A stretch of 64,000 bases of DNA from Adhaeribacter pallidiroseus (lineage in GTDB: Bacteria; Bacteroidota; Bacteroidia; Cytophagales; Hymenobacteraceae): positions 4,216,001 through 4,280,000 of the forward strand of contig NZ_QASA01000001.1 in NCBI RefSeq assembly GCF_003340495.1. The letters run 5' to 3'. A program made the translations under genes and the position numbers. Shown here piece after piece: positions 1 through 64,000 of the stretch (the first letter of the stretch is position 1; every line of letters begins with the position of its first letter). Below the pieces are notes generated by a model. The model saw only the letters and a program-made list of their open reading frames with translations. It searched no databases and had not been told where the DNA came from.

Positions 1-3000
1 TACTGGGTTATAAAACTCGAAAGTGATGGCACTAAAGCCTGGGACAAAACAATTGGTGGTACCTATGGAGACCGGTTATTTGTTGTGCGGCAAACAAAAG
101 ATGGTGGCTACATTCTGGGCGGCACTTCTAATTCCTACACATCTGGTGATAAAACAGAATCTTTCCTAGGAGAGTATGATGGCTGGGATAATGGTGATTA
201 CTGGGTAGTAAAACTAGACGCCACGGGTAAAAAGATCTGGGATAAAACCCACGGGGGATCCGAGAACGAGGATCTAAACTCCCTGGAGCAAACCCAGGAT
301 GGCGGCTATATTCTGGCGGGTGAAACGAATGCATCGGGGGAAATCTTAAAATTAACGCCGAACGGCGATAAAGTATGGAATACGGGCCCCGATCTAAACG
401 GAAATGATTACGAAAAACGATTAACCTCCATTGTGCAAACCAGCGATGGCGGTTATCTGGCCGGAGGAGAAGATACTTTCGAAGGAGGCGTTTATATCCT
501 CAAGCTAGCCCAGAACAAAGCTCAAACGATCACCTTCACGCCTATTCCTACTAAATTATACGGCGTAACTCCTTTCACGGTATCGGCTAAGGCCAGCTCC
601 GGTTTGCCCGTAACCTATGAAGTGCTATCCGGCTCGGTGGAACTCAAGGGTACTACCCTTACCCCCACCGGAGTGGGCACCGTAACCATAATAGCCTACC
701 AGGCCGGTAACGAAACGTATGCACCTACCCAAGCGAAATACACTTTTAACCTTGTTTATCCATCTCAGGTAACTACTAATAAAGTAATTGGAGGTAGTGC
801 CGAAGACAAGTTAGCGGTAATGCAAAAAACCAAGGATGGGGGCTATATTCTGGGCGGCTCTTCTAAATCCGGCGTTAGCGGCGATAAAACGCAAGCTAGT
901 AAAGGAGAATTGGATTTTTGGATAGTTAAACTGAAGGCGGATGGCCGTATCGAGTGGAACAAGACGCTGGGTGGTAGTAAAAGCGATCAGTTAAAGGCGC
1001 TCCAACAAACCCAGGATGGCGGTTACATTCTCGGCGGCACTTCTTCTTCCAGTATCAGCGGCGATAAAAGCCAGGCTGGCAAAGGACAGGCGGATTACTG
1101 GGTTATTAAGTTAAACGCTGATGGCAGCAAAGCCTGGGATAAAACCTGGGGTGGTACCAGCCAAGATAGTTTATCGGCGCTGCAACAAACAAAGGATGGC
1201 GGTTATATCCTAGGTGGGTACTCCTACTCCAATAAAAGTGCCGATAAAGCGGTAGATAGTAAAGGAGCTGCTGACTTCTGGGTAGTAAAACTAAGCGCTA
1301 CTGGCGCCAAGGAATGGGATAAAACTTTTGGCGGCAGCGGCCTTGATATCTTAACCTCGCTCCAGCAAACCAAGGACAACGGGTATATTTTGGGTGGTGC
1401 TTCCGCTTCCAACATCAGTGGCGATAAAACCCAGGTCAGTCGAGGGGGTTTGGATTATTGGATAGTAAAGCTCCAGGCCGATGGTAGTAAAGAATGGGAC
1501 AGAACTGCGGGTGGCGATCAAAAGGATTATTTAACCGTGGTGCGTCAAACTGCCGATAATAATTATATTCTAGCCGGTAGCTCTAATTCTTCGGACATAG
1601 GCGGCGATAAGTCACAACCATCCAAGGGGAAAACAGATTATTGGATCGTAAAGGTAGATTCTTACGGAATAGACTGGAACAGCACCTACGGGGGTAACGA
1701 AGATGATTATTTAACTTCCATTCAGGAGCTAGACAATCAAAAATTTTTACTTGGCGGCTATTCCGCTTCCGGTGTTTCGGGTGATAAAACGGAACCCAAT
1801 AGAGGCAATGCCGCTGAATCCGGAACATTAACCGCTGATTACTGGGTAGTAAAAGTGGAAAAAAGAGAAGGAATTTCCGGCACTTATAAAGTATGGGATA
1901 AAACCATCGGCGGGAACGGTCAGGAGGAGTTAATAGCGGCGCTACCCACCAGCAACGGAAACTATGTTTTAGGCGGCAGTTCCAACTCTGGTGTTAGCGG
2001 GGATAAAACGCAAGCCTCCAAAGGGTTTAGAGACTACTGGATAGTAGACTTAAATTTAAACGAAATGCCTACCGTCCCTTATTGGAACATGCGCTACGGC
2101 GGATATTTACCGGATAACTTTACTACCTTAATTAAAACAGCCGATGGCGGGTACTTATCCGGAGGGTACACTACTTCCCGAAACAGTGGCGATGTAGAAT
2201 ACGCGGAAGGAGTAGCAAAACAGAACTATTGGATAATTAAGACGGACCGGAATGGCAAGAAAGAATGGGATAAACTTTACGGCGGGCTGAACGATGATTA
2301 TCTGAATCAGGTCATCCAGACCCAAGATGGCGGTTACTTGTTAGCCGGTTCTTCTTTTTCGGGCAACAGCATTAACAAAGGCCAGGCCAGCCGCGGTGGC
2401 CGGGACTACTGGATCGTGAAGATAGGCGCGCAGGGTACCCGGCAATGGGACAAACGTTTTGGGGGCACGGGCAACGATGAGCTCAAGAAAGTGATTCAAT
2501 TAACCACTGGCGAATACGTGCTGGCCGGTTACAGCAACTCCCCGGCCAGTGGCGACAAGAGCCAGGGTAGCCAGGGCGGCAACGATTACTGGTTGATCAA
2601 ACTTACCAAAACCGGGATAAAGCTGTGGGATAAACGCTACGGCGGCAACCAGAATGATGAACTGGAAAGCATTACCCTCACCGCTACCAATGGATTTATT
2701 CTGGGCGGCACCTCTGCTTCCGGGATCGGCGGCGACAAAACGCAGGCCAGCCAAGGCAGCCAGGACTTTTGGTTAGTACGGGTAGATGCGGATGGCAACA
2801 AGATCTGGGATAAACGCTACGGTGGCACCGGGAACGAGGTGTTAACCACCGTAGGCTGGAACCGGGAATATAGCCCGCAAACCAATGTAGACGGCGATTA
2901 TTACCTGGCTGGTTACAGTACTTCTGGCATTAGTGGCGATAAAAAGCAGGCTAGCCAAGGGGGAAAGGATTTCTGGTTTTTGCAAATCAAGAGCAACGGC

Positions 3001-3681
3001 ATTTTGTACCGGGAAAAAAGTTACGGCGGTAGCGGCGACGAGGAACTGCGGTCCGTGCTTCAGACAGAGGAAGGTGATTATTTGCTGGCGGGTTCTTCTA
3101 ACTCCGGCGTAAGCGGCGATAAAAGCCAGGTCAGCAAAGGCAACAGCGATTACTGGTTAGTGCGAATCAATGCCACCGGGGCTAAGCAGTACGACCAAGC
3201 ATATGGGGGCAGCGACAAAGAAGAACTACGGGCCATGGTGCTGGCCGAAGATGGAGGCATTGTGCTGGGCGGTAGATCTGATTCCCCAATAAGCGGAGAT
3301 CGCAGTCAGCCTAGCCAGGGCCGTACCGATTACTGGTTAATCAAGATAGTCTCGGAAAAAAGCGGAATGGTAGTTAGCCGGGTAGCCAACGAACCCGAGC
3401 TAGCGATCGAACAATCAAGCAACGTACAGTTACTTGTTTACCCGAATCCGTTTCAAGAGAAAGTAACTATTAGCTTTACGCTGCCCGAAACTCAGCCCGC
3501 AACGGTTAGAGTACTTGATAGTCAGGGTTGCGAAATTACTACCTTATTCCAAAAGGAAGCACAAGCCAAACAGGCCTACCAAGTAGAATGGCAGGCGGGT
3601 AAACAAGCAGCCGGTATGTACTTGCTGCAATTACAAACGCCTACGGGACAAATCACCAAAAAAATACTTCGGAGCAGGTAA
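1..3681 (+). CDS. Array copy 1 (5'-truncated by window): T9SS multi-propeller repeat protein
   Basis: The reading frame is already open at base 1, in the middle of a repeat (YWVIKLESDG), so the start and signal peptide lie outside the window. The GTG near base 85 is internal and not a real start. Visible parts are the last three units of P1, the Ig-like domain (about bases 520-765), seven P2 units (about 780-2075), seven P3 units (about 2080-3350) and the sorting domain from about 3430, with YPNPF and the ending KKILRSR. P2 units 5 and 6 have drifted from DGGY to DNNY and DNQK. P3 begins YWNMRYGG and its last unit carries SGDRSQPSQG. Role: T9SS-exported surface or secreted protein, ligand unknown. 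The sorting domain is clear; the propeller fold is inferred from 60-residue units in sevens. Confidence 0.9.
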   Translation, partial: YWVIKLESDGTKAWDKTIGGTYGDRLFVVRQTKDGGYILGGTSNSYTSGDKTESFLGEYDGWDNGDYWVVKLDATGKKIWDKTHGGSENEDLNSLEQTQDGGYILAGETNASGEILKLTPNGDKVWNTGPDLNGNDYEKRLTSIVQTSDGGYLAGGEDTFEGGVYILKLAQNKAQTITFTPIPTKLYGVTPFTVSAKASSGLPVTYEVLSGSVELKGTTLTPTGVGTVTIIAYQAGNETYAPTQAKYTFNLVYPSQVTTNKVIGGSAEDKLAVMQKTKDGGYILGGSSKSGVSGDKTQASKGELDFWIVKLKADGRIEWNKTLGGSKSDQLKALQQTQDGGYILGGTSSSSISGDKSQAGKGQADYWVIKLNADGSKAWDKTWGGTSQDSLSALQQTKDGGYILGGYSYSNKSADKAVDSKGAADFWVVKLSATGAKEWDKTFGGSGLDILTSLQQTKDNGYILGGASASNISGDKTQVSRGGLDYWIVKLQADGSKEWDRTAGGDQKDYLTVVRQTADNNYILAGSSNSSDIGGDKSQPSKGKTDYWIVKVDSYGIDWNSTYGGNEDDYLTSIQELDNQKFLLGGYSASGVSGDKTEPNRGNAAESGTLTADYWVVKVEKREGISGTYKVWDKTIGGNGQEELIAALPTSNGNYVLGGSSNSGVSGDKTQASKGFRDYWIVDLNLNEMPTVPYWNMRYGGYLPDNFTTLIKTADGGYLSGGYTTSRNSGDVEYAEGVAKQNYWIIKTDRNGKKEWDKLYGGLNDDYLNQVIQTQDGGYLLAGSSFSGNSINKGQASRGGRDYWIVKIGAQGTRQWDKRFGGTGNDELKKVIQLTTGEYVLAGYSNSPASGDKSQGSQGGNDYWLIKLTKTGIKLWDKRYGGNQNDELESITLTATNGFILGGTSASGIGGDKTQASQGSQDFWLVRVDADGNKIWDKRYGGTGNEVLTTVGWNREYSPQTNVDGDYYLAGYSTSGISGDKKQASQGGKDFWFLQIKSNGILYREKSYGGSGDEELRSVLQTEEGDYLLAGSSNSGVSGDKSQVSKGNSDYWLVRINATGAKQYDQAYGGSDKEELRAMVLAEDGGIVLGGRSDSPISGDRSQPSQGRTDYWLIKIVSEKSGMVVSRVANEPELAIEQSSNVQLLVYPNPFQEKVTISFTLPETQPATVRVLDSQGCEITTLFQKEAQAKQAYQVEWQAGKQAAGMYLLQLQTPTGQITKKILRSR

Positions 3682-3705
3682 TTTTTTTAAATTTTTTCTT
3701 TTCTC

Positions 3706-3738: not shown

Positions 3739-4704
3739 ATTCGATCTTTTTCAAATTCTCCGCATATTTTGTTTGCTTAGCGCTTTAATTTCTACTGGCC
3801 AGCATTGCGGCGTCTTATTGTTACAAAACCAAACTATAGCCAACGCAGCAGAATAATTAATGCTTTGCCCATGCTGCGAATAGTTTTAGTCTGCCGGCGT
3901 TTTAAGAAAAATGTAACTAAGATTCTATCCTGGCTTTAATAAAAGAGGTTCAGGTTAATTGCTTTGTTAAAATTTCAAATTTTTGAGTAATAATACTTAG
4001 CTAAATCGTTGGAAAATACTTACATTAAGGGGAAATAAGCAGCGTATTTATTTCTTTTATTAACCCGGCATCTCTTTTGGGCACCAAAGTTCAGCGCTTT
4101 CGGTTAGCAGTTCCTTTCACAATAGTTGTTATTTCTTGTTTAATTTTAATGTCTTCGTCTATGCAAACAAGAGTATTCCACTTGCACCAAAAATTTTAAA
4201 TTTTAGCTTCGACTACCCTTTTACCAGTGTTTCAGAATAAACTTTAGGAGCCGCCGCTGCGCAAATTATAGCGGGTGTAAGATCTTAGCTGATTTTGGCA
4301 ATAATTTACCATTCATGCTAGCGCATCGAAAGGAAGAGCTTCTGTTTTAAACTTAATCAGGATAAAACAGAAGCCCCTGGAGACCTAAAGAAGAAAGTTC
4401 AAGATTTTTCACCTCCATAGCAAATAGCAAAGCTAAAGAGTATCAATGCCAAAAAAAGGATACTAGCTGTTTTTCAAAAATAGCTACCATTTATTAATTT
4501 ATCATTTACTGGTTGCCAAATTGCTGCTTGCTTTATTCGCGTCATCACTTGTTTTCAGTACATCAATTAACTCCGCAACCGACCTAAATTTTAAAAAAAA
4601 TAAGGCCAGAAGCGTCTCCACCCTCGCGGCAACCCGGTTATAGAACTGACTGGGTTCTGGTTCTCCTGCTTCGTTTATTGCTCTTTTCCTTAAAACTTTA
4701 TTTT
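3739..4704. other. Longest intergenic gap, about 970 bp, no gene seen
   Basis: AT-rich sequence between the copy 1 terminator and copy 2. No open frame with family or other recognisable protein content was found on either strand. It lacks the 18-bp palindrome found upstream of copies 5, 6, 9 and 11-13. It holds a 12-bp inverted repeat (4338-4374) and a shorter 7-bp one (3844-3850 with 3872-3878). The promoter of copy 2 must lie here, but I cannot place it with confidence. Confidence 0.6.
4338..4374. repeat. Perfect 12-bp inverted repeat, 13-nt loop
   Basis: GCTTCTGTTTTA (4338-4349) pairs exactly with TAAAACAGAAGC (4363-4374). There is no T-run on either side, so it is not a standard terminator. 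It could be a structured leader element or the scar of a lost element; no other copy of it was noticed in the window. Confidence 0.5.
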
Positions 4705-7700
4705 ATGAAAACCGCTTTTATTAGTACCAGTAGGTGTTTTAAATTTCCCTATTTTACCTATTGGGTCCGGGCAATTTGGTTGGTATGCCTGCCCATCTCT
4801 TTTAATTCTTTTGCGCAAAATAAAATTTGGGATCAAACGTACGGGGGCCCACTAACGGACAAACTCTCCGCGATGGTAGCTACGCCGGATGGCGGCTTTC
4901 TATTGGGGGGATCTTCCCTGTCCAATAAAGGAGCCGATAAAACCGAAGATTGCCGGGATGGGAATAAAGCTTACATCAGCGAACCGGTGGGTGATTATTG
5001 GATTATTAAATTAGATGCCAACGGCCAAAAAGTATGGGATAAAACCTACGGCGGAGATAACACCGATAACCTGAAAACTGTAATAGCTACCTCGGACGGC
5101 GGCTATTTACTGGGTGGTTTTTCCTTGTCGGGTATCAGTGGCGACAAGAGTGAAAAAAACAGGGCCACTTTTGATCAAAATAAGCAAATTACGCCGGATT
5201 ATTGGGTGGTAAAAATTGATGCTAACGGAGAAAAAATTTGGGATAAAACTTTCGGGGGCAAAAATAGTGATATTTTAACCTCCCAGGTAACAACTGCCGA
5301 TGGGGGCTTTTTACTCGGTGGTTATTCTGATTCCGGAAAAGAAGGTGATAAAACGCAAGCAAATAAATGCAACCAAGATTACTGCGGCAGTGATTACTGG
5401 ATAGTAAAGCTAAAAGCCGACGGCAGTAAAGAATGGGATAAAACTTTCGGCGGCGATTATAACGAAAGCCTGGCCACCGTACTAGTAACCAATGATGGGG
5501 GCTACCTGCTGGGGGGGTCTTCTGAATCCGGCAAAAGCGGGGATAAAAGTGTGGCACCAACCGGAAACTGGTTATTAAAGCTGGATGTTACCGGCAAAAA
5601 AATCTGGGATAAAGTGTACGGTACCGGTGGTCTGCGGGCAATGGCAACTACAACCCAGGGAGGATATTTGCTGGGCAATGCCGACTATAGAATTACCAAA
5701 CTAAACGCCGCTGGCAGCAAAGAATGGGAAAAGAATTACCGCAGTAGCACCCAAGATATACTCGGAACGGTGCTTGTTAGCCCCGATGGCAGCTACTTAT
5801 TAGGCGGCATATCCCTCCGGGGTAAAGGCGGACATAAAAGTGAAGAAAAAAAAGGCTACTGGGTAGTAAAGGTAAACAAAAACGGCGATAAGATATGGGA
5901 AAGAACTTTTGGCAGCGACGACTTTTCCTTTAACTGGCCCGCTACTTTCGATCTGGATGTAATAATCACCCCCGATAAAAATTTCCTGCTGGGTGGTACG
6001 GCCGCCTCGGGTATCCGCGGCGATAAAAGTGAAGCCAGCCGTGGTTCTAACGACTATTGGGTCGTAAAAGTAGGTAATACCGATAAGCAAGTTCAAAACA
6101 TCACCTTCCCTACGCCACTCCTTACCAGAACACTGGGCGATGCGCCTGTTATTCTTAAAGCCCAAGCTAGTTCGGGGTTACCCGTTACTTTTTCGGTGAT
6201 TTCGGGCCCGGCTACCCTTACTCAAAATTTACTCACTTTTACGGGAATAGGGAGAATTATCATACAAGCTTCCCAAACCGGTAATGCTATCTTTGCCCCG
6301 GCATCTGCGATAAACCAGGTTATCATCGTGGACCCACCTGGCCCGGTTACTAAACTTTGGGATAAGCGTATTGGCGGCAAACGCAACGATCAGCTAATAA
6401 CCATGGTTGCCGCTCCCGATGGCGGCTATCTGCTGGCCGGCAACTCTAATTCAGATAAAGGGGGCGATAAAAGTAGTTCTAAAAATGGTTATTGGCTCGT
6501 GAAGATAGATCCGGATGGAAAAAAACTCTGGGACATTACTATAGCTGCCTTTGGCGATTTGGGCGACCGGTTCACAAGTCTGATAAGCACCACCGATGGC
6601 GGCTATTTATTAGGCAGCACTTCTTCTTTTGATTTTAGTGATCTGTACCGGGTAGTTAAAATCAGTAGTAGTGGTACAAAGCAATGGGAAAAAGCTATAG
6701 GAGGATTTAACGAAGCCGGGAACTCCCTGGATGCGTTATTGGCTACCCCGGATGGAGGCTATTTATTGGGTGGGTCCTCTAACGCCGACATTGGCGGGGA
6801 TAAAAGTGAACCCAGCCGGGGAGAACAAGATTACTGGCTGGTAAAGCTGGATGCAAACGGCAATAAGCTGTGGGATAAAACTTTAGGCGGTACGCAAAGC
6901 GAAGAGCTCACCTCACTGGTGGCAACCCCCGATGGCGGCTATCTGGCAGGTGGTTATTCTGGCTCCGGTAAAAATGGCGATAAGAGTGAAAATAACAAAG
7001 GAATTCCGGATGTATATGGCTATTTATCGGTGGATTATTGGATAGTAAAAATAGATGCAACCGGTAAGAAACTGTGGGATAAAACCTGGGGGGGAGATAA
7101 GAATGATTTTTTAAAAAGTATGGTAGCCACCCCGGATGGAGGGTATTTAGTAGGTGGTTCTTCCTTTTCGGATAAGAGCGGCGACAAAAGCGAAATCAAC
7201 CAGGGCCTACCGGATGCTAATGGCAGCTTAACCTCGGATTACTGGCTGGTAAAGATTGATGCCCAAGGCACCAAAATATGGGATGAAACCATAGGCGGAT
7301 CTAACTACGATCATCTGGCAACAATCGCGGCTACACCGGACGGAGATTATCTGCTGGGAGGAACTTCTACTTCCGGGATCGAGAAAGATAAAAGTGGCGA
7401 GGTTCGGGGAATAGATCAGGTTTATGGAGACTATTGGATCGTGAAGATAGATAAAGATGGCAAGAAGGTTTGGGATAAGATCTTAGGAGGAGAAAAAGGC
7501 GATGAGCTCACAACCATGGTGGCTTCCCCAAATGGTACCGGTTACATACTAGGAGGAAGTTCCGCTTCGGATGCTAATGGTGACAAGACTGAACCTAACT
7601 GGGGTGTATACGATTTTTGGTTAGTAAAGCTAAAAGAAGACCAACCGCTTGCAGCATCCTGGAACAGGCGCTACGGTGGCAGTGGCAGCGATAACCTGAC

Positions 7701-9231
7701 TTCTACCATTAAGACCCAAGATGGGGGTTACTTAAGTGGCGGTTACACCAACTCCGGGGTAAGTGGCGATAAAAGCCTAAACAGTCAGGGCCAGAACGAC
7801 TACTGGATTGTCAAGAGTGATAAAAACGGCAAAAAACTCTGGGACAAACGTTATGGTGGTTCAGGTGACGATTATCTCCACCGCGTGATCCAGACTGCTG
7901 ACGGTGGTTACTTACTAGCGGGCTCTTCTTTCTCGAACAAGAGCGGCGACAAGTCCCAGGCCAGTAAAGGTAACCGTGACTACTGGCTGGTGAAAACCGA
8001 TCAGCTGGGCAATAAGGAATGGGATAAAACCTACGGCGGCTCCGGCAAAGAGGAACTCGTTAAAGTCATTCAACTGCGTACTGGCGAGTACGTGTTGGGC
8101 GGACATAGCAACTCTCCCGTAAGTGGCGATAAAAGCCAAGCTAGTCAAGGTAGTTCAGATTACTGGATTTTAAAAATAAGCAGCACGGGCACTATTATTT
8201 GGGATAAACGCTATGGTGGCAGCTTAGCAGAAACACTCGGCAGCTTTGTTCAAACCCCGGATGGCGGCTACTTACTCGGAGGATCTTCCTTGTCCGGGAA
8301 AACCGGGGATAAAACGCAAAGTAGCCAAGGAGCGAGTGATTACTGGGTCGTGAAAACGGATCAACAAGGTAAGATCGTCTGGGAGAAAACCTATGGCGGC
8401 AGTAAAGCGGATCAAGTTTACTCGGTAGCTATGAACTCCGCTAAGAACTACTTTATTTCCGGAACGAGCAGTTCGGGTAAGAGTGGCGACAAGACACAAG
8501 CCAGTCAAGGAGGCCAAGATTACTGGTTAGTTACTTTAGATGAGAATGGCAATAAGCTGTGGGATCGTACATTCGGCGGCAGTAAAGATGATGAACTGCG
8601 GGCCAGCACGATTACCAGTAAAGGACATTACATACTGGCGGGTCACTCCTCCTCCGATGCAAGCGGCGATAAAACCCAGGACAGCCAGGGCGACAGTGAT
8701 TACTGGGTCGTAGCCGTAGACGAGCAAGGCAATAAAGTACAAGATTTACGCTACGGAGGCAGCGAAGCGGAAGTACTCCGCACCGTGACCCCGACCAAAG
8801 ACGGCGGCTTGCTGCTAGCCGGCAGATCTGCTTCGGGCGTGAGTGGGGATCGTACCCAGCCCAGTCAGGGCAGTACCGATTACTGGCTCGTGAAAGTAGC
8901 TCCCACCACTAATTCCCTGTTAGCTACTAGACAAGTAACTCTAGCCGAAGAACCAGTTAGTAAAACCGAAGGCTTTCAATTTCAAGCTTACCCCAATCCT
9001 TTCCGGGAGAAAGTTACTATAAGCTTTATGCTATCCCAGACTCAGTTTGCTCAGGTAAAAGTATCTGACAGCCAGGGTAGAGAAATAACTACTTTGTTTA
9101 AGGGAAGGGCCCAAGCCAACCAAACCTATCAGGTAGAGTGGCAAGGACACAACAAAGTTGCCGGCATGTACCTAGTGCACCTAAATACTTCGGCCAGGAA
9201 TGTTACAGCTAAAATCTTACTTAGCCCTTGA
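4705..9231 (+). CDS. Array copy 2: T9SS triple-propeller repeat protein (1508 aa)
   Basis: I chose the ATG at 4705 (MKTAF) over an in-frame TTG at 4678, because MKT opens most paralogues and gives a normal signal peptide (hydrophobic segment about residues 23-34, predicted cleavage A37|Q38). P1 has seven units (to about 460). The Ig-like domain spans about 462-544, P2 seven units about 545-985, P3 seven units about 985-1397, and the sorting domain about 1427-1508 (YPNPFREKV, ending KILLSP). P1 unit 3 carries the loop CNQDYC. P1 unit 5 is degenerate: GGYLLGN is followed by DYR, with no SGDK loop. P3 starts SWNRRYGG and closely matches copies 3, 4 and 13. No clear terminator follows in the 262-bp gap, and no palindrome precedes it. 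Function beyond surface or secreted localisation is unknown. Confidence 0.92.
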   Translation: MKTAFISTSRCFKFPYFTYWVRAIWLVCLPISFNSFAQNKIWDQTYGGPLTDKLSAMVATPDGGFLLGGSSLSNKGADKTEDCRDGNKAYISEPVGDYWIIKLDANGQKVWDKTYGGDNTDNLKTVIATSDGGYLLGGFSLSGISGDKSEKNRATFDQNKQITPDYWVVKIDANGEKIWDKTFGGKNSDILTSQVTTADGGFLLGGYSDSGKEGDKTQANKCNQDYCGSDYWIVKLKADGSKEWDKTFGGDYNESLATVLVTNDGGYLLGGSSESGKSGDKSVAPTGNWLLKLDVTGKKIWDKVYGTGGLRAMATTTQGGYLLGNADYRITKLNAAGSKEWEKNYRSSTQDILGTVLVSPDGSYLLGGISLRGKGGHKSEEKKGYWVVKVNKNGDKIWERTFGSDDFSFNWPATFDLDVIITPDKNFLLGGTAASGIRGDKSEASRGSNDYWVVKVGNTDKQVQNITFPTPLLTRTLGDAPVILKAQASSGLPVTFSVISGPATLTQNLLTFTGIGRIIIQASQTGNAIFAPASAINQVIIVDPPGPVTKLWDKRIGGKRNDQLITMVAAPDGGYLLAGNSNSDKGGDKSSSKNGYWLVKIDPDGKKLWDITIAAFGDLGDRFTSLISTTDGGYLLGSTSSFDFSDLYRVVKISSSGTKQWEKAIGGFNEAGNSLDALLATPDGGYLLGGSSNADIGGDKSEPSRGEQDYWLVKLDANGNKLWDKTLGGTQSEELTSLVATPDGGYLAGGYSGSGKNGDKSENNKGIPDVYGYLSVDYWIVKIDATGKKLWDKTWGGDKNDFLKSMVATPDGGYLVGGSSFSDKSGDKSEINQGLPDANGSLTSDYWLVKIDAQGTKIWDETIGGSNYDHLATIAATPDGDYLLGGTSTSGIEKDKSGEVRGIDQVYGDYWIVKIDKDGKKVWDKILGGEKGDELTTMVASPNGTGYILGGSSASDANGDKTEPNWGVYDFWLVKLKEDQPLAASWNRRYGGSGSDNLTSTIKTQDGGYLSGGYTNSGVSGDKSLNSQGQNDYWIVKSDKNGKKLWDKRYGGSGDDYLHRVIQTADGGYLLAGSSFSNKSGDKSQASKGNRDYWLVKTDQLGNKEWDKTYGGSGKEELVKVIQLRTGEYVLGGHSNSPVSGDKSQASQGSSDYWILKISSTGTIIWDKRYGGSLAETLGSFVQTPDGGYLLGGSSLSGKTGDKTQSSQGASDYWVVKTDQQGKIVWEKTYGGSKADQVYSVAMNSAKNYFISGTSSSGKSGDKTQASQGGQDYWLVTLDENGNKLWDRTFGGSKDDELRASTITSKGHYILAGHSSSDASGDKTQDSQGDSDYWVVAVDEQGNKVQDLRYGGSEAEVLRTVTPTKDGGLLLAGRSASGVSGDRTQPSQGSTDYWLVKVAPTTNSLLATRQVTLAEEPVSKTEGFQFQAYPNPFREKVTISFMLSQTQFAQVKVSDSQGREITTLFKGRAQANQTYQVEWQGHNKVAGMYLVHLNTSARNVTAKILLSP

Positions 9232-26971: not shown

Positions 26972-27066
26972 GTGATTATGACTACTGGTTTTTAAAAATT
27001 GATAGTTCGGGCAAGAAAATCTGGGATAAAACCATCGGCGGCGATAGGAATGATTATTTACAATCT

Positions 27067-30641: not shown

Positions 30642-31262
30642 ATGAAAACATCTTTTACATTCCGCTCCTTTCCGTTTCGTTTACCAGTAACCTGGCTCCC
30701 AATAGCGAGCTTTTTCCTGCTGGGCCTAAGCTTCGCTAATCCAGCCCTGGCCCAAACCATCCAGTGGGATAAAACGCTCGGTGGCTTCCATGACGACATA
30801 CTAACGGCGATGCAGCCCACGAGCGATGGCGGTTATATTGTGGGGGGCTCCTCCTCCTCGGGAATAGGTGGCGATAAAAGTGAACCTAACCGAGAAAACT
30901 CGTTTAATTCTAACGACTACTCTGATTATTGGATAGTAAAAACGGATGCGAAAGGTCAAAAAGTATGGGATAGAACTTTTGGCGGTGATTATTATGAATT
31001 TTTAAGTACTGTGCAGCAGACTAAAGATGGAGGTTATATTTTGGCTGGCACTTCGCATTCTAATATAAGTGGGGATAAAACCGAAAACAGTAAAGGCCAA
31101 GCAGATTTTTGGGTAGTGAAGGTAGACGCGACTGGTAATAAACAATGGGATAAAACCATCGGGGGAAAGTTAGATGATCAGTTAAGTTCTGTTCTGCAAA
31201 CAAGCGATGGTGGTTATATTTTGTACGGAGGATCTGAATCCAATACAAGTGGGGATAAATAA
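30642..31262 (+). CDS. Copy 7, translatable 5' part (206 aa)
   Basis: Signal peptide plus the first two P1 units and most of the third, ending SNTSGDK before the TAA. No sorting domain, so no T9SS export is expected. Confidence 0.6.
   Translation: MKTSFTFRSFPFRLPVTWLPIASFFLLGLSFANPALAQTIQWDKTLGGFHDDILTAMQPTSDGGYIVGGSSSSGIGGDKSEPNRENSFNSNDYSDYWIVKTDAKGQKVWDRTFGGDYYEFLSTVQQTKDGGYILAGTSHSNISGDKTENSKGQADFWVVKVDATGNKQWDKTIGGKLDDQLSSVLQTSDGGYILYGGSESNTSGDK
31260..31262 (+). other. Premature TAA in copy 7
   Basis: GAT AAA TAA GAA GAA here, where sister units read GAT AAA TCA GAA GAA. A single C-to-A substitution; the frame is unchanged on both sides. Confidence 0.88.
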
Positions 31263-31370
31263 GAAGAAAGCAAAGGAAGCCATGACTATTGGCTAGTAAA
31301 GATAGATGCCACTGGTAAAAAAGAATGGGATAAAACCTGGGGAGGCAATAATTACGATTTTTTAAGTGAA

Positions 31371-45068: not shown

Positions 45069-45350
45069 AAGCCTAAACCCGTAAAACTACCCGAGTTTAA
45101 ACATCAGCCAGATACGCATTCCTACCGGATAATTTCTATATATCATCTGCTGTAAAAACTTAACTCTAGTAATATTTTTTAAATTTTATCCGGAAATAAT
45201 TTACTTTAGGATAGAATATTAATTTACAACGTTCTGTATCCTCGCCTGTTATCTTTTCAGCAGCGAGAAACCTACCTGATTACCTCAGTTTCTCTGATCA
45301 ACAACTTGTATGAAGCATTCATACCGGAATCAAAACGAAATCTTACCTTG
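45069..45350. other. Leader region of copy 10, no palindrome
   Basis: About 280 bp of AT-rich sequence with a T-A3-T tract near 45175 but without the ATACCTAA palindrome. No gene or confident promoter is seen. A short upstream extension from a TTG at 45306 is in frame with copy 10 but is not needed for its signal peptide. Confidence 0.5.
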
Positions 45351-55142: not shown

Positions 55143-58100
55143 ATGAGAACACGTTTTACTTCCTTTACTCTTTTTCTTCCAGCATGGCTTTTTTTTAAAA
55201 AATGGGCCAGCCTAGCGCTCTTCCTTGCCCTCTGGTTAAGTCTTTCTTTCTTAGCCCAAGCGCAAACCATTGAATGGCAACAAACCATTGGCGGGAGCCA
55301 GGAGGATCAATTAACTATTACGCAGCAAACCAGCGACGGCGGCTATATCTTAGGGGGCACTTCTTATTCCGGTAAAGGCGGCGACAAATTCGAAAATAGC
55401 AGAGGCAATCTAGATTATTGGATTGTTAAGCTCGACTCTACAGGGAAAAAACAATGGGACCGAACCTTTGGTGGCAACGATTACGATCATCTCATGGCAC
55501 TACAGCAAACGAGTGATGGGGGTTATATTTTGGGGGGATCTTCCAGATCCAACGTCAGCGGGGATAAATCGGAAAAAAGTCAGGGGGAAGCAGATTATTG
55601 GATAATCAAACTAAATCCGAATGGTCAAAAAATGTGGGATAAAACCTTAGGTGGGAACTTTACTGATTTACTGGTTTCTGTACAACAAACCCACGATGGG
55701 GGGTATATCCTGGGCGGTTCTTCTTATTCGGCTAAAAGCGGCGATAAATCCGAAGGTAGCAAAGGTAGCGATGATTACTGGATTGTTAAGTTAGATGCGG
55801 CGGGTAAAAAGCAATGGGACAAGATTATTGGTGGCAGCGATTACGACCGGTTAAGAGCATTACAACAAACCCCGGATGGGGGCTATATTCTGGGAGGCAC
55901 TTCTGGATCCAATAGCAGCAGTGATAAATCCGAAGATAGCCGAGGAGGTAATGATTATTGGATAGTAAAGTTAACTGCGGCCGGTGTAAAACAATGGGAC
56001 CAAACATTTGGCGGCAGCAGTGACGACTATTTAACGGCACTACAACAAACCCAGGATGAGGGCTACATTGTAGGCGGGGAATCAAGATCTGATAGTAGTG
56101 GGGATAAATCACATGGTCGTAAAGGAAATACTTCTAACTCGGACTACTGGATTTTAAAGCTAAAAGCTGATGGGACTAAAGATTGGGACAAAACCTTTGG
56201 GGGGAGTAATTCTGATGCATTAACCTCCATTCAACTCACCAATGATGGGGGGTATATTCTGGGGGGTAGTTCGGATTCTCGTATTGGTGGAGATAAATCC
56301 GAAGATAGAAGAGGAGGAGCTGATTATTGGATTGTAAAGTTAACTGGAGCCGGTAAAAAACAATGGGACCAAACCCTGGGCGGAACGGGTTATGATATAT
56401 TAACCTCGGTAGAGCAAACCCAAGACGGCGGCTATATTCTGGGAGGCTATTCTGGTTCTGGTATAAGTGGTGATAAAACAGGAGCCTCCAGAGGCAATAC
56501 AGATTACTGGGTAGTGAAACTGAAAGCCGGCAGTAATAAGCCCCAGAAAATCACCTTCGCTGCTATTCCTCCTAAAACTGTTTACGATAAACCTTTTGCG
56601 CTGCAAGCCACCGCCAGTTCCGGATTGCCCGTTATCTTTCGGGTAATTTCGGGGCCGGCTACCATTAAAGGCAACCTAATTACCCTTACGGGCGGTGGTA
56701 CGGTTACCATCGAAGCTTCCCAGCCCGGCAATGCCGAATTTAGAGGCGCTCCGGAAGTTATTCGCTCGTTTCTGGTGGATGTAGATTATACCCGCCTCTG
56801 GGATCGTACCCTGGGTGGTAGCCATGCCGATAAACTAAGCGCCATGATTCCTACGCCTGATGGGGGTTACTTACTCGGCGGCACTTCCAACTCCAGCAGC
56901 ACCTGGGACAAAAGCCAGTCCCGTCAGGGGGGCACCGACTTCTGGATCGTAAAACTCGACAGTAGCGGCTACAAACTCTGGGATAAAACGTACGGGGGCG
57001 CAGCTAACGATAACCTACAGGCTCTTGTAGCCACCCCAGATGGCGGCTTCTTACTGGGCGGCACTTCCGCCTCGGGCAACACTGGTGCTAAAAGCCAACC
57101 TAGCCGAGGGAAAGAAGATTACTGGGTCGTAAAAATAGACAGTAGCGGTACCCAGCTTTGGGATAAAACTTACGGCACCGACCAGAGTGATACCTTTACG
57201 GCCCTAATTATCACTCCGGATGGAGGTTACTTACTCGGCGGGTATACGGGTGGGGGCATTAACGGCGATAAAACTGAAGCCAGCCGCGATACTACCGGCA
57301 CCCCTTACGTATACAACGACTTTTGGGTATTAAAGCTCGATAGCCAAGGGGCAAAACAATGGGATAAAACCATCGGGGGTAAATCCGTAGAATTGCTGGG
57401 CGGACTAATCAATACCCCCGGTGGCTACTTACTCGCTGGTAAGTCCAGTTCCAATAGCAGCGGCGATAGAACCGCGCCCAATTATTACACCATAGATGGC
57501 GGCCGTTCGGATGTGTGGGTAGTAAAGATAAATGAAGGCGGACAGATTCTGTGGGATCGGGCGTATGCGCACGGTATTTTATACGATAACTACCAAGCTA
57601 ATATTTTTGCGACCACCGATGGCAACTACCTGGTGGGGGGTTACACCTACGACGATGATTTTGGCGTGTATTCGGTATTTAAAATAACCCCGGCCGGAGA
57701 ACAACTTTGGTCAAATGCCTATGGGCAGGGAGATTACGCTACCAACCTTCCCATGTCCATGGTAAATACTCCGGATGGGGGGTATTTGCTGGCGAATACC
57801 AACGGCGACTATTCTTACAGCGGTTCCTATTGGCTACAAAAAGTGGATAAGGACGGCAATAAAATGTATACCAAATTTTTCGGGAATGGGAAGTACAATG
57901 CTAGTGAGAACTACTTAACTGCTTTACTCGCCACTGCGGATGGTAGTTACTTGCTAGGTGGGTATTCTAATTCAAACCAAAATGCCGTTAAAAGCGAAAC
58001 CAGTAAGGGTGATTTTGATTATTGGATATTGAAAATTAAAGAAGCCGACATGCCGCCGGTAACAGATACTAGCTGGAACTATCGCTACGGGGGCAGCTGG

Positions 58101-59738
58101 CACGATAAACTAACTTCTACCATCCGCACTTTTGACGGCGGGTACGTAGCCGCCGGTTATTCCCGCTCGCCGAAGAACGGCGACAAAACGCAGTCGCGCA
58201 TTGGCCTGGAAGATTACTGGCTGTTGAAAACCGACCAACAAGGTAAAAAGCTCTGGGACAAACGTTTCGGTGGACCGCGGCACGACTTTCTTAACCAAGT
58301 TATTCAAACCAGTGATGGCGGCTATTTACTTGCTGGGAGCTCAGACTCGGGTATCGGGGGCGATAAAACTCAGAACAGCCAGGGTAACCGGGATTACTGG
58401 GTAATCCGGCTGGATAAGAACGGCAATAAACTGTGGGATAAACGTTACGGCGGCTCGGGTTACGATGAACTCCGGCAAATCAAACAACTGCCTTCGGGTG
58501 GTTACCTGTTGGCCGGTTACAGCAATTCGCCCGCTAGCGGCGATAAGAGCCAGCTGAGCAAAGGCGGCATGGATTATTGGATCGTGCAGATTGACGCGAA
58601 TGGAGAAAAACAATGGGATAAAACTTACGGCGGCTCCGCCGATGATTACCTGCAAGATGTAGCGTTCACCAGCAGTTTGGTGCCCGATACGGGCTATCAA
58701 CCGGACGGAGGTTTATTTTTAGGGGGCAGTTCTAACTCCGGTCTAAATGGCGACAAAAGCCAGGCAAGCCGGGGGGGCCACGACTACTGGATTATCCGCG
58801 TGGACAGTACGGGTCAGAAAGTGTGGGATAAGCGTTATGGCGGTACAGGCCAGGATAAGTTCTTTGCTTTTGGTAGTAATAGTTTAACGAGTGCTGGCAT
58901 TAGATTAGCCGGAAACAGCGATTCTCCGAAGAGTGGCGACAAAAGTCAACCCAGCAAAGGTGGCACCGATTACTGGTTAGTAGTAATAGATGCAGCAGGA
59001 GAGATAGAAGAGAGTTTAGGCAGCATAAGAGGGGATTACACCTACGGCGGCAGTGGTCGGGAGGAGTTGCGTTCTTTAAGCTATGTCTATGATCAGGATT
59101 ACTTAGAAGATGGATTTATGCTGGGCGGTACCTCGTACTCCGGCAAGAGCGGCGACAAAAGTCAGGAGAGTCAAGGCGGTGCGGATTACTGGGTAGTGCG
59201 CGTTGATATTTACGGCAGAAAGCTGGCCGACCAGCGCCTGGGCGGCAGCGAATCTGATGAACTACGCGCTGTAGTGCAAACCGGTGAAAACCAATTCCTG
59301 TTAGCCGGTCGTTCCGAGTCCGGGGTAAGCGGCGATCGTACCCAGCCCAGCCAGGGCCAGAGTGATTACTGGCTCATTCATACTACGATTGGCACCGAAC
59401 CACTCGCCACCGAAAAAGCCGCTGCTGTAGCGGCTCGTGCGGAAACTGCTATTCAGAGAACTGCTCTAGATACTTTAGCAACCAACTTCGTGGCTTACCC
59501 CAATCCGTTCCGGGAGAAAGCAACCGTCCGCTTCTCGGTAGAAACTACCCAACCCGTGAGTTTGCAAGTGCACGATAGCCAGGGCCGGCAAGTAGCTACT
59601 TTGTTTCAAGGTCAGGCGCAAGCGAAGCAGCCGTACACAGTAGTATGGCAGGCTAAAAACCAGGCTGCTGGCTTATACTTCCTCCGCCTGCAAACTGCCG
59701 GCAAAGTACAACACCAGAAAGTACTGCTGGCTAAGTAA
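55143..59738 (+). CDS. Array copy 12: T9SS triple-propeller repeat protein (1531 aa)
   Basis: MRTRF start; the signal peptide has FFKKW (T8A6 tract) like copy 9, predicted cleavage A40|Q41. Seven P1 units, Ig-like about 464-545, seven P2 units to about 975, seven P3 units to about 1411, and a sorting domain about 1449-1531 (YPNPFREKA, ending KVLLAK). The Ig-like domain, P2 and P3 resemble copy 9 (including FGGPRHDFLN and TEPLATEKAAA), but the sorting domain is the SVETTQP subtype of copies 4, 5 and 7. The gene therefore looks recombinant near its 3' end. P1 units are very regular, with little loop insertion. The palindromic promoter precedes it and a long stem terminator follows. Confidence 0.93.
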   Translation: MRTRFTSFTLFLPAWLFFKKWASLALFLALWLSLSFLAQAQTIEWQQTIGGSQEDQLTITQQTSDGGYILGGTSYSGKGGDKFENSRGNLDYWIVKLDSTGKKQWDRTFGGNDYDHLMALQQTSDGGYILGGSSRSNVSGDKSEKSQGEADYWIIKLNPNGQKMWDKTLGGNFTDLLVSVQQTHDGGYILGGSSYSAKSGDKSEGSKGSDDYWIVKLDAAGKKQWDKIIGGSDYDRLRALQQTPDGGYILGGTSGSNSSSDKSEDSRGGNDYWIVKLTAAGVKQWDQTFGGSSDDYLTALQQTQDEGYIVGGESRSDSSGDKSHGRKGNTSNSDYWILKLKADGTKDWDKTFGGSNSDALTSIQLTNDGGYILGGSSDSRIGGDKSEDRRGGADYWIVKLTGAGKKQWDQTLGGTGYDILTSVEQTQDGGYILGGYSGSGISGDKTGASRGNTDYWVVKLKAGSNKPQKITFAAIPPKTVYDKPFALQATASSGLPVIFRVISGPATIKGNLITLTGGGTVTIEASQPGNAEFRGAPEVIRSFLVDVDYTRLWDRTLGGSHADKLSAMIPTPDGGYLLGGTSNSSSTWDKSQSRQGGTDFWIVKLDSSGYKLWDKTYGGAANDNLQALVATPDGGFLLGGTSASGNTGAKSQPSRGKEDYWVVKIDSSGTQLWDKTYGTDQSDTFTALIITPDGGYLLGGYTGGGINGDKTEASRDTTGTPYVYNDFWVLKLDSQGAKQWDKTIGGKSVELLGGLINTPGGYLLAGKSSSNSSGDRTAPNYYTIDGGRSDVWVVKINEGGQILWDRAYAHGILYDNYQANIFATTDGNYLVGGYTYDDDFGVYSVFKITPAGEQLWSNAYGQGDYATNLPMSMVNTPDGGYLLANTNGDYSYSGSYWLQKVDKDGNKMYTKFFGNGKYNASENYLTALLATADGSYLLGGYSNSNQNAVKSETSKGDFDYWILKIKEADMPPVTDTSWNYRYGGSWHDKLTSTIRTFDGGYVAAGYSRSPKNGDKTQSRIGLEDYWLLKTDQQGKKLWDKRFGGPRHDFLNQVIQTSDGGYLLAGSSDSGIGGDKTQNSQGNRDYWVIRLDKNGNKLWDKRYGGSGYDELRQIKQLPSGGYLLAGYSNSPASGDKSQLSKGGMDYWIVQIDANGEKQWDKTYGGSADDYLQDVAFTSSLVPDTGYQPDGGLFLGGSSNSGLNGDKSQASRGGHDYWIIRVDSTGQKVWDKRYGGTGQDKFFAFGSNSLTSAGIRLAGNSDSPKSGDKSQPSKGGTDYWLVVIDAAGEIEESLGSIRGDYTYGGSGREELRSLSYVYDQDYLEDGFMLGGTSYSGKSGDKSQESQGGADYWVVRVDIYGRKLADQRLGGSESDELRAVVQTGENQFLLAGRSESGVSGDRTQPSQGQSDYWLIHTTIGTEPLATEKAAAVAARAETAIQRTALDTLATNFVAYPNPFREKATVRFSVETTQPVSLQVHDSQGRQVATLFQGQAQAKQPYTVVWQAKNQAAGLYFLRLQTAGKVQHQKVLLAK

Positions 59739-60116: not shown

Positions 60117-62882
60117 ATGAAAACAAACACTACTTTCTCCCTTTACTGGCTTTCAGTGTTTTATTTTTTTAAAAATTGGCAGCGATTCACCTTCTTCCTA
60201 CTTGTTTACTTGTGCTTTACTCCTTTGGTGCAAGCTCAAATTATGGAGTGGAACAAAACCTTTGGAGGAAATAAACCGGATAATCTTAGTTCGCTGCAAT
60301 TAACCCAAGATGGCGGCTATATCTTGGGTGGCACTTCGTTTTCTAATAAAAGCGGGGAAAAAACCGGAGGCAACCGCGGACAAAACGATTACTGGGTAGT
60401 GAAGCTGGATGCAGCCGGTAACAAACAGTGGGATAAGACCTTGGGCGGTAGCAGCTACGATAACTTAACTACTCTGCAGCCAACCCAAGATGGGGGCTAT
60501 ATTTTGGGCGGTTCTTCTGATTCTAAGAACAGTGGTAATAAATCGGAAAACAGTAGAGGCTCTGAGGATTATTGGATCGTAAAGTTGGATGTTAATGGCA
60601 ATAAACAATGGGATAAAACCTTTGGGGGCAATCAGCGTGACTATTTAAATGCCGTGCAACAAACTAGTGATGGTGGCTATATTTTGGGTGGCTACTCTTT
60701 TTCATCCAAGAGCGGTGACAAATTGGAGGATAACAAAGGTGATTCCGATTATTGGATAGTTAAAATAGATGCGCGCGGCACCAAGCAGTGGGATAAGACC
60801 TTGGGCGGTAGCAAGTATGACTATCTTACAGCGCTGCAGCAAACGCAGGATAATGGTTATTTGCTGGGGGGATATTCTGATTCAGGGAAAAGTTTCGATA
60901 AATCACAAGCTTCTAAAGGCTATGAGGATTTTTGGATAGTAAAGCTAGATGGTTCCGGTAATAAACAATGGGATAAAACTATTGGTGGCGATGGAGGAGA
61001 ACAATTACAATCACTCCGGCAAATGCGCGACGGTGGGTATATTTTAGGTGGAACTTCTTCTTCGGGAAAAGGCCGTGACAAATCCGAAGAAAGCAAAGGT
61101 TATAATGATTACTGGTTGGTTAAACTTAATATAACCGGCAAGAGGCAATGGGATAAAACCTTTGGCGGTAGCAATACCGATGATTTAGTTTCCCTGGAGT
61201 TTACCAGTGATGGGGGATACTTGCTAAGCGGTTATTCTTATTCGCCTACAAGCGGTGACAAATCGGAAAATTCAAAAGGTTCCTGGACAATAGCGGTAGA
61301 CGCCGCTGGCACAAAGGTCTGGGATAAAACCTTTGACTTTGATTTTCCCGTACGACTCGTTCCGGCTGGTGGTTATATTGCGGCCGGTAGCAGCAACGTG
61401 AGTAGAGTAGATTACCAAATAATAAAGCTAAACCTGTCGCAACAGGTTCAAACCATTGCTTTTACTCCTATTCCGGATCAGCCGTATAATGCGGATCCTT
61501 TTGCTCTGAAAGCTAAGGCAAGTTCCGGCTTGCCGGTTACTTTCAGTTTGGTTTCGGGTCCGGCCACCTTAAAAGACAGTATCCTTACCATTGCCGGCGA
61601 GGGTGCCATTACCGTAAAAGCTATTCAGGCGGGTGATTCTACCTATTTTGCTGCCCCGGACGTAGTGCAAACCTTTAAAGTAATCGATAGCCGGAAAACC
61701 CAGACGATTACTTTCCAGTCTATCCCCGGTAAAACAATTTACGATAAACCTTTCACCCTACTAGCTACAGCTAGTTCAGGCCTACCGGTTAGTTTCCGGG
61801 TAATATCGGGAGCCGCTACAATCAAAGGCAATACCGTTACTTTAACTAACCACCGGAGTGGCACGATTACTATTGAAGCCTTGCAACCAGGTAATGAAAA
61901 CTATAAACCAGCACCGGCAGTTACGCAAACATTCGGTGTAGTAGCCCCTTTTACCAAAATCTGGGATCGCACCATCGGAGGAAACAAATCAGATGGGCTA
62001 AGTGCCATGGTTCCTACCGCCGATGGTGGGTACTTGCTGGGCGGCACTTCGGATTCAGACCAAAGCGGTGATAAGTCACAGGCTAATAAAGGGGAAGTCG
62101 ACATAAATGGGAATCCTACAACCGATTACTGGATCGTAAAGGTGGATGCCGCGGGTAACAAAGAGTGGGATCAAACCTATGGTGGTAACAGCTATGATGG
62201 TTTAACTTCTTTGGTACAAACCAGTGATGGCGGTTACTTGTTAGGCGGAATATCTAGTTCTAACAAAAGTGACGATAAATCCGAAGATAATAAAAGCACA
62301 GGTTCGTATGACGGCGACTATTGGATTGTAAAGCTAGACGCTACCGGAAAGAAAATGTGGGATAAAACGATTGGTGGTAATAGCTATGATGAATTAAAAA
62401 CCGTCCGGCAAACCAGCGATGGCGGCTATATCTTAGGCGGAACTTCTACTTCTGACATAAGCGGGGATAAGACAAAAGCAAATAAAGGGTGGAAGGATTA
62501 CTGGATCGTAAAACTCGATGCAGCGGGCAACAAACAATGGGATCAAACCTATGGCGAATTTTATGTTTATGATGGTCAAGTATATGGAGGAACTAGTGAA
62601 TTGACCACCGTGCAACAAACCCCGGATGGCGGCTATATTCTCGGGGGATCTTCTACGCCGGAAGATGAAGAATATACCAAATTTTGGCTAATAAAGGTAG
62701 ATGCGAGCGGCAACACACAATGGGCAAAACGTATAGGAGGAGGTAGTGAAGGGGATTATCTTACTACCTTGCAACAAACCCAAGATGGTGGCTATATTCT
62801 GGGGGTGGTACACCTTCTTACGGAAATAGTGCCGGTGGAGACAAATCGGAAGATGGCAAGGGAGGCAACGATTACTGGGTGA
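60117..62882 (+). CDS. Copy 13, translatable 5' part (921 aa)
   Basis: Signal peptide, P1, both Ig-like domains and the first four P2 units with part of the fifth, ending in a short out-of-frame tail. It lacks P3 and the sorting domain. Confidence 0.6.
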   Translation: MKTNTTFSLYWLSVFYFFKNWQRFTFFLLVYLCFTPLVQAQIMEWNKTFGGNKPDNLSSLQLTQDGGYILGGTSFSNKSGEKTGGNRGQNDYWVVKLDAAGNKQWDKTLGGSSYDNLTTLQPTQDGGYILGGSSDSKNSGNKSENSRGSEDYWIVKLDVNGNKQWDKTFGGNQRDYLNAVQQTSDGGYILGGYSFSSKSGDKLEDNKGDSDYWIVKIDARGTKQWDKTLGGSKYDYLTALQQTQDNGYLLGGYSDSGKSFDKSQASKGYEDFWIVKLDGSGNKQWDKTIGGDGGEQLQSLRQMRDGGYILGGTSSSGKGRDKSEESKGYNDYWLVKLNITGKRQWDKTFGGSNTDDLVSLEFTSDGGYLLSGYSYSPTSGDKSENSKGSWTIAVDAAGTKVWDKTFDFDFPVRLVPAGGYIAAGSSNVSRVDYQIIKLNLSQQVQTIAFTPIPDQPYNADPFALKAKASSGLPVTFSLVSGPATLKDSILTIAGEGAITVKAIQAGDSTYFAAPDVVQTFKVIDSRKTQTITFQSIPGKTIYDKPFTLLATASSGLPVSFRVISGAATIKGNTVTLTNHRSGTITIEALQPGNENYKPAPAVTQTFGVVAPFTKIWDRTIGGNKSDGLSAMVPTADGGYLLGGTSDSDQSGDKSQANKGEVDINGNPTTDYWIVKVDAAGNKEWDQTYGGNSYDGLTSLVQTSDGGYLLGGISSSNKSDDKSEDNKSTGSYDGDYWIVKLDATGKKMWDKTIGGNSYDELKTVRQTSDGGYILGGTSTSDISGDKTKANKGWKDYWIVKLDAAGNKQWDQTYGEFYVYDGQVYGGTSELTTVQQTPDGGYILGGSSTPEDEEYTKFWLIKVDASGNTQWAKRIGGGSEGDYLTTLQQTQDGGYILGVVHLLTEIVPVETNRKMAREATITG
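62801..62805 (+). other. Frameshift site in copy 13 (G5)
   Basis: G5 where the repeat frame needs G6. Upstream codons start at 60117 plus multiples of three; downstream repeat codons resume one base out of phase, at 62807. Confidence 0.8.
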
Positions 62883-64000
62883 TTAAGCTGGATAGTAAAG
62901 GCAACAAAGAATGGGATCGAACAATTGGCGGAAGATACCAGGATCAATTATCCGATATACAACAAACCCCCGACGGCGGGTACATTTTAGGTGGTAGTTC
63001 TTTGTCGGGCATCAGTGCAGATAAATCGGAAAACAACTATGGCGATTATTTCGTCTTCCAGGGCGTTGTTCAATATTCCAACTCCGATCTCTGGATTGTG
63101 AAGCTAAACGCTACCGGTGAAAAGATATGGGATAAAACCATTGGCGGCACTGGAAATGAAGGTTTAGCTTTCCTGCAACAGACTGGCGATGGCAGCTATA
63201 TTATAGGTGGTAGTTCTGCTTCCGATGTTAGTGGCGATAAATCCGAAGATAATAAAAGCACAGGTTCGTATGACGGCGACTATTGGATTATTAAAATTCA
63301 AGAAAACCAGCCTGTTACGACTGCCTGGAACAGGCGCTACGGTGGCAGTGGTACGGATAACCTTACCTCCACCATTAAGACCCAAGATGGCGGCTACTTA
63401 AGCGGCGGCTACACCAACTCCGGGGTAAGTGGCGATAAGTCGCAGAACTCGCAAGGTAAGAACGATTACTGGATTGTGAAATCCGACAAAAATGGCAAGA
63501 AACTCTGGGATAAACGTTATGGCGGCTCCGGTGAGGATTACCTGAACCGGGTGATACAAACAGCTGACGATGGTTACTTACTAGCGGGCTCTTCTTTTTC
63601 GGGCAAGAGCGGCGACAAGTCCCAGGCCAGTAAAGGTAACCGTGACTACTGGCTGGTGAAAACCGATCAGCTGGGCAACAAAGAATGGGATAAAACCTAC
63701 GGCGGCTCCGGCGAAGAGGAACTCGTCAAAGTCATTCAATTAGCTTCCGGTGAGTACGTGTTAGGCGGCTTCAGCAACTCCCCTATCAGCGGGGATAAAA
63801 CCCAAGCGCCTCAGGGTAGTTCAGACTACTGGCTCGTCAAAATTTCCAAAAACGGTACTATCATCTGGGATCAACGCTATGGTGGTTCTATGGAAGAAAA
63901 GCTAGGGAGCTTTATCGAGACTCCGGATGGCGGCTTCTTACTCGGAGGATCTTCCTTGTCCGGGAAAACCGGCGATAAAACGCAAAGTAGCCAAGGAGCG
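62807..64000 (+). CDS. Copy 13, part after the frameshift, open to window edge
   Basis: In-frame repeat coding from GGTPSYGN through the rest of P2 and four P3 units, still open at base 64000. It has no start of its own. Confidence 0.5.

Follow-up and report, generated by a model that had tools for sequence, protein, structure and literature searches.

The window analysed here, i.e., the stretch of 64,000 nucleotides at contig positions 4216001-4280000 of the Adhaeribacter pallidiroseus genome (6.43 Mb; contig NZ_QASA01000001.1), is filled by 13 consecutive genes on the plus strand (copies 1-13), the products of which are built from blocks of a repeated unit of about 60 residues. According to our data, every block in the window comprises seven units; it is very probable that each unit forms one four-stranded blade, that seven blades close into a beta-propeller ring, and that the count is held by this closure. 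Seven-bladed propellers are common, so that the fold is unsurprising; it is an ordinary one, and what stands out is the unusually strict count.

Number of units per block in the window and elsewhere

Units were counted with a profile of 60 positions, built from 110 seed units and refined on relatives, whose consensus core is W(D)KT-GG----D-L---T-DGGY-LGG-S-S---GDK-----G--DYW-VK-D--G-K. The spacing between successive units has a median of 60 residues, with a 5-95% range of 57-68 and extremes of 34 and 92 (984 pairs from 164 blocks of the source genome and other species).

A first-pass annotation of this DNA had proposed the organization 7-Ig-7-7 for copies 2, 3, and 5-12, and both the profile count and the reading of the sequences bear it out. 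Copy 4, which that annotation had omitted, is also on the rule, its organization being 7-Ig-7-Ig-7-7. Copies 1 and 13, the first and the last genes, are cut by the window edges; they had been said to agree as far as visible, and they do so once completed with the same-genome stretches upstream (L001) and downstream (L002). Block 1 of copy 1 has four units in L001 up to the window edge and three inside the window; in copy 13, two Ig-like stretches separate block 1 from block 2, whose unit 5 is interrupted by a frame break. Open frames are present in copies 2, 3, 4, 5, and 8-12, and frame breaks in copies 6, 7, and 13: block 1 of copy 6 has five units and a cut sixth, followed in another frame by the remainder of the sixth and the seventh, and that of copy 7 has two units and a cut third, followed by the remainder of the third and units 4-7. 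On the whole, 40 of the 40 blocks lying within or overlapping the window have seven units. The count had also been said to hold despite eroded units, and it does so in block 1 of copy 3, whose units 4-5 are modelled with four strands each; for blocks 2 and 3 of copy 9 the automatic count is 13, and reading finds unit 7 of block 2 present though eroded. The "Ig" stretch, a label taken from the first-pass annotation, spans about 85 residues with predicted strands, and no Ig family matched in the three proteins scanned.

The features of the window are the following (block bounds are the extents of the unit profile hits):

1..3681, plus strand: copy 1, 5' end in L001; end of block 1, Ig, block 2 at 778-2055, block 3 at 2083-3354, C-terminal tail (unit profile hits).
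4678..9231, plus strand: copy 2; block 1 at 4828-6087, Ig at 6088-6357, block 2 at 6358-7641, block 3 at 7660-8907 (profile hits; AlphaFold of blocks 2 and 3).
8989-9219, plus strand: type IX sorting tail of copy 2 (family scan).
9494..14140, plus strand: copy 3; block 1 at 9620-10813 (units 4-5 eroded), Ig, block 2 at 11087-12550, block 3 at 12569-13810 (profile hits; AlphaFold of block 1 and Ig).
14603..20602, plus strand: copy 4; four blocks at 14729-16015, (Ig), 16277-17539, (Ig), 17798-19015, and 19031-20272; sorting tail (profile hits; family scan).
20903..25378, plus strand: copy 5; blocks at 21038-22315, 22583-23785, and 23804-25051 (profile hits).
25775..30333, plus strand: copy 6; frames 25775-26971 and 27067-30333, break in unit 6 of block 1; block 2 at 27478-28731, block 3 at 28759-29997 (pieces counted apart).
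30642..35234, plus strand: copy 7; frames 30642-31262 and 31371-35234, break in unit 3 of block 1; block 2 at 32376-33635, block 3 at 33663-34904 (pieces counted apart).
35489..40102, plus strand: copy 8; blocks at 35621-36973, 37250-38503, and 38531-39772 (profile hits).
40413..45002, plus strand: copy 9; blocks at 40545-41864, 42132-43298 (unit 7 eroded), and 43320-44642 (profile hits and reading).
45306..49934, plus strand: copy 10; blocks at 45483-46775, 47043-48326, and 48345-49610 (profile hits).
50202..54764, plus strand: copy 11; blocks at 50325-51602, 51858-53156, and 53184-54431; sorting tail (profile hits; family scan).
55143..59738, plus strand: copy 12; blocks at 55275-56540, 56799-58043, and 58074-59384 (profile hits).
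60117..64000, plus strand: copy 13, 3' end in L002; block 1 starting at 60249, then two Ig-like stretches (to about 61961); block 2 starting at 61962, its frame broken near 62880; block 3 starting at 63326 and running past the window end (profile hits).

The frame breaks in copies 6, 7, and 13, as well as those in several sister-genome copies, might represent real decay, switching, or assembly errors.

The same counter was applied outside the window to 20 stretches of the source genome, to 40 stretches of five other genomes (three of them congeneric), and to 80 loci of other species, which are the best of 108 relatives retrieved with a two-ring query; most of these loci are from Bacteroidota, and Planctomycetota, Verrucomicrobia, Opitutales, and Thermoanaerobaculia appear as the labels of single records. 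Where two edge frames overlap in the genome G003, one was left out of the counts, and a weak run with a gap-filled unit (L070) was kept in. The automatic count is a multiple of seven in 277 of the 289 complete runs (22/23 in the window, 23/25 in the rest of the genome, 139/143 in the five other genomes, and 93/98 in other species), a number that rises to 282, equal to 376 rings, after reading. Five of the twelve misses are seven on reading, namely copy 9, L003 (an eroded unit), and L083, L093, and G003:6220208, each with one unit split by an insertion. As for the others, L067 and L085 have single extra matches of 4 and 2 bits, the miss in L079 is the second part of a run that a frame break divides 3+4, and L020 is a gene remnant of 295 residues with three units; the last three fall in two adjacent broken genes of G003 and consist of a block of eight (the eighth unit is real), a block of one, and a run of two cut by a frame break.

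A frame was considered intact when it had at least 15 residues before the first unit and at least 60 after the last one and was not at an edge. With readings included, the intact frames on the count are 9/9 in the window, 17/18 in the rest of the genome (the miss is L020), 80/80 in the five other genomes, and 82/85 in other species (the misses are L067, L079, and L085). Automated profile counting, which the first-pass annotation had suggested as a check, gives seven in intact genes, with five runs that needed reading by eye. The clear changes in unit number seen in this sample sit in broken genes. The number of rings per protein ranges from one to four, and a single ring stands alone in 8 of the 18 intact frames in the rest of the genome, in 11/80 in the five other genomes, and in 77/85 in other species.

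The only clear off-count blocks seen (1 and 8) are located at 1749929-1758579 of contig C2 of G003 (L139), where unequal crossing-over between neighbours is possible.

Predicted fold and probable closure of the ring

Since its units 4-5 are eroded, block 1 of copy 3 was modelled with AlphaFold together with the adjacent Ig stretch, and the model has a mean predicted local distance difference test (pLDDT) score of 87.3 and a predicted template modelling (pTM) score of 0.76. An opening strand and 27 further ones make up 28 strands, that is, seven blades of four, including four in each of the eroded units. The model of blocks 2 and 3 of copy 2 (pLDDT 79.7, pTM 0.59) has 56 strands, 28 per block. 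In Foldseek searches of the PDB, the top match of both models is CylK: 7fh7 for the one-ring model of copy 3 (E 2.5e-18, TM-score 0.65) and, for the two-ring model of copy 2, an E value of 8e-24, with 7fh6 superposing at 2.6 Å over 424 columns. CylK is also the only significant match in a sequence search of the PDB with two proteins (E 1e-24 and 2e-26).

The structure prediction, which the first-pass annotation had indicated as a check, yields seven four-stranded units per block and matches to propellers, and it does not yield an open solenoid. The seven-bladed beta-propeller proposed there is supported by the models and by CylK; three rings in a row per protein is likewise supported, with the exception of copy 4, which has four.

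The ends of the blocks point in the same direction. Across the 164 blocks with seven units, units 1-6 extend to profile position 59 (at least 58 is reached by 83-96% of them), whereas unit 7 ends at position 54 (9% reach 58). Each block starts with a lone tryptophan strand, xxWDKTxGG, and at its end unit 7 stops after the third strand; a unit 7 lacking the fourth strand, together with a lone strand at the start of the block, fits a 3+1 velcro closure, a closure of propellers described in PMC3797127. Judging from the strand order, the opening strand most likely provides blade 7 with its outer strand, which would complete that blade and close the seven as a ring. On the basis of these predictions, the propeller fold is well supported, and from it we infer the closure of the ring itself.

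Shared descent, structural upkeep, and alternative arrangements

The first-pass annotation had reasoned that a fixed count implies a closed structure. The conclusion is supported, but the reasoning needed repair, since whole-gene copying alone can share a count among paralogues. Seven might be merely inherited, a single seven-unit ancestor having been copied as whole genes or blocks with no structural upkeep needed, and we consider this explanation improbable. The comparison of blocks for register used those with exactly seven detected units plus block 3 of copy 9. A mislabelled run, the copy 13 fragment at the window edge (frame at window residue 20916), which combines three block 2 units with four block 3 units, was left out of this analysis and still included in the comparisons of exact tracts and of identity within block 1 reported below. 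Shift 0, which would be best by chance in 1 case out of 7, is best in 189/190 pairs of block 3 and in 119/140 comparisons of block 3 with the C-terminal single rings of the source genome. Such position-keeping speaks for inheritance, and the seven of block 3 is largely due to shared descent. Recent blade duplication within the rings of the source genome was rejected, no exact tract longer than 37 bp being found between blades at different positions of one block; the lack of visible recent blade turnover is also in favour of inheritance.

Register is mostly lost elsewhere, which counts against inheritance. Between block 2 and block 3 of one gene it is kept in 0/15 cases, and at a matched best-shift identity of 0.48-0.60 it is kept in 129/130 pairs of block 3, yet only in 3/24 pairs of block 2 with block 3, in 12/66 of block 1 with block 3, and in 242/1034 pairs of rings of other species. 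From these matched-identity pairs, saturation was judged unlikely as the cause of the lost register. Moreover, a tree of 1148 blades unites the full set of seven blades in a single clade for the Runella ring L028 (support 0.91) and likewise for the Rufibacter ring L041 (0.80), and four further rings have clades of four to six of their own blades, with support from 0.18 to 0.89. Some rings thus arose by fresh amplification that ended at seven. Furthermore, off-count blocks do occur, but in broken genes, and the early end of unit 7 is not something that copying alone would predict.

Several points weigh against a count held by closure. The count of block 3 is inherited by descent, and its many copies therefore represent few independent observations. 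Pairs of block 1 (30/105) and of block 2 (24/105) are in register weakly but detectably above chance, both values exceeding all 300 shift permutations, which also favours inheritance; 47 of the 105 block 2 blades are nearest to the same-position blade of another block, and rings of other species with an identity above 0.65 keep the register in 132/132 pairs, as expected for orthologues. A clean seven-blade clade appears in only 2 of the 164 blocks, and only 23 of the 98 other-species rings show more similarity among their own blades than to the best other ring, which limits the strong evidence for independent amplification. The loci of other species were taken from the top of the score list (80 of 108 from a two-ring query), and divergent members with other counts may be missed, while the off-count blocks (8 and 1) adjoin in one genome and could be the result of one event or of an assembly fault. 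Both models were built on only 11 and 12 aligned paralogues; the pTM of the two-ring model is modest, and its root-mean-square deviation is 15-17 Å in the other four of the first five CylK matches, although a high value may be expected of a two-ring query.

Two further candidates were tried and abandoned. Concerted evolution within block 1 was rejected, blade identity being 0.47 inside a block and 0.46 between blocks at different positions, and a count of independent origins from single-linkage clusters of register memory was dropped because its result depends on the threshold, ranging from 4 to 78. As regards the divergence among copies, block 3 of copies 2, 3, 4, 7, and 8 is 82-90% identical, whereas block 1 of copies 2, 3, 4, and 8 is 35-54% alike and block 2 of copies 2, 3, 4, 7, and 8 is 42-51% alike (74% between copies 7 and 8). 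Block 3 has perhaps been homogenised by gene conversion.

Taking both sides together, closure remains the explanation that we prefer: the number is most likely kept at seven by the inability of these blades to close properly into a ring of any other size. Unit number does change, yet the cases seen are confined to broken genes, and the count is probably under selection. A stronger version, in which ring size is encoded in the blade, so that each fresh amplification ends at seven and number changes survive only in dead genes, is a tentative proposal that we judge somewhat less probable than its negation. If true, seven would be enforced by selection on closure, unlike in WD40 blades, fragments of which give closed rings of between six and nine. 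Highly repetitive propellers span a continuous range of blade numbers, in which WD40 members peak at 7 and 14 (PMC9218822), and rings of eight and nine were obtained from building blocks of WRAP, itself seven-bladed (PMC6805158). Such propellers resemble the present ones in being amplified from single blades and differ from them in that blade number varies there, whereas here it is seven in nearly every run. The 376 rings at seven, set against the published continuum, represent a natural test set for what fixes blade number. Among the matches listed in open-licence literature, no account of this blade family was found.

Two other arrangements can be set against separate seven-bladed rings. Blocks 2 and 3 have no Ig stretch between them, their profile hits are only about 5-10 residues apart, and together they hold 14 units, so that they could form one large ring or unequal rings, e.g., 6+8; this is very unlikely, given that unit 7 of block 2 lacks the fourth strand, that a short linker and then another opening strand come next, as they would where a ring ends, that the model gives 28+28 strands, and that stand-alone seven-unit rings occur in many proteins. 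The early end of unit 7 would also be what divides block 2 from block 3. Least probable of all is an open solenoid or a beta-helix, with which fixed-length tandem repeats are by themselves compatible, as both models match propellers (CylK best), the count is fixed, and the end unit is shortened as for velcro.

Relatives, predicted secretion, and distribution

Pfam covers the unit poorly. Of the three proteins scanned, two have nothing above a cut-off apart from the sorting tail, and in the other (copy 11) residues 908-967, in block 2, just pass that of DUF5736 (27.8 bits vs. 27.4). Residues 336-452 of copy 11 match Arylsulfotrans below the cut-off; as with the DUF5736 stretch, they lie within the propeller repeats. 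The best NCBIfam match over several units, in all three proteins (E 5e-32 to 2e-43), is the SBBP repeat beta-propeller lipoprotein, LipL53 family (NF047494), from which the present proteins differ in reaching 111-149 bits against a cut-off of 400 and in being multi-ring with a type IX secretion system (T9SS) tail. The delta-60 repeat (TIGR02608) has a similar repeat length (model length 55) and matches weakly in copy 4 (E 9e-5) and copy 11 (E 0.006), at 22 bits or less against a cut-off of 76.5.

The nearest solved relative is the propeller of CylK (PDB 7ron, 7roo, 7fh6-7fh8), the significant sequence match and the best fold match of both models. Crystal structures show its C-terminal domain to be a seven-bladed propeller in which each blade junction carries calcium (PMC8916777). 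Like the present rings, it has seven four-stranded blades with a long loop within each blade, and the Asp at the junction of the aligned blade matches the conserved Asp at profile position 11. The conserved Asp residues at positions 11, 37, and 47 would be compatible with calcium at the blade junctions. CylK is a biosynthetic enzyme made of one ring fused to a Ca-binding beta-roll domain, whereas the proteins studied here combine as many as four rings with an Ig-like domain and a secretion tail. The relationship to CylK would speak for the rings being CylK-type alkylating enzymes; we regard such a role, in place of ligand binding, as a very remote prospect. In the alignment of copy 11, Asp440 of CylK is replaced by Q and Tyr473 by N (residue numbers agree with those in PMC8916777), profile positions 12 and 46 are variable across the family, and the N-terminal domain of CylK that supplies Arg105 falls outside the matched region; with neither of these two ring residues retained and the Arg105 domain unmatched, catalysis as in CylK is unlikely.

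By reading the sequences, copies 2-13 begin with a hydrophobic signal-like stretch ending in AQ, and the sorting tail is above the cut-off in 3/3 proteins scanned (PF18962, 35.5-41.8 bits vs. 27; TIGR04183, 33-39 vs. 23). A typical protein consists of a signal-like stretch, a ring, an Ig-like domain, two further rings, and a type IX sorting tail. After export across the outer membrane, it would be either displayed or released with its three rings (four in one case) in line, and the role of the rings is most likely the binding of ligands. These sequence features suggest that the products are likely a secreted or surface-anchored string of ligand-binding rings.

Block 3 was searched for in seven other genomes of the genus (G001-G007) at E 1e-110 or better: three of them have at least 25, at least 33, and at least 45 copies, and none was found at this threshold in the other four, one of which is 78% complete. 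The polymerase III alpha gene upstream of the array has 96-97% identity among carriers, compared with 84-86%, and groups the carriers, so that the expansion seems to have taken place within a single sub-clade. The DUF6929 gene that the array adjoins in the source genome is also its neighbour in G004. Part of one genus expanded these proteins to tens of genes, and the distribution is patchy.

In L005, L009, and L014, a C-terminal ring and a tail follow long unit-free N-terminal regions (561-1751 residues), and the ring may be an exchangeable C-terminal module. Finally, a Kelch-repeat protein with a type IX sorting tail is encoded on the other strand at 2624-4699 of L002, shortly downstream of the array and past the DUF6929 gene.

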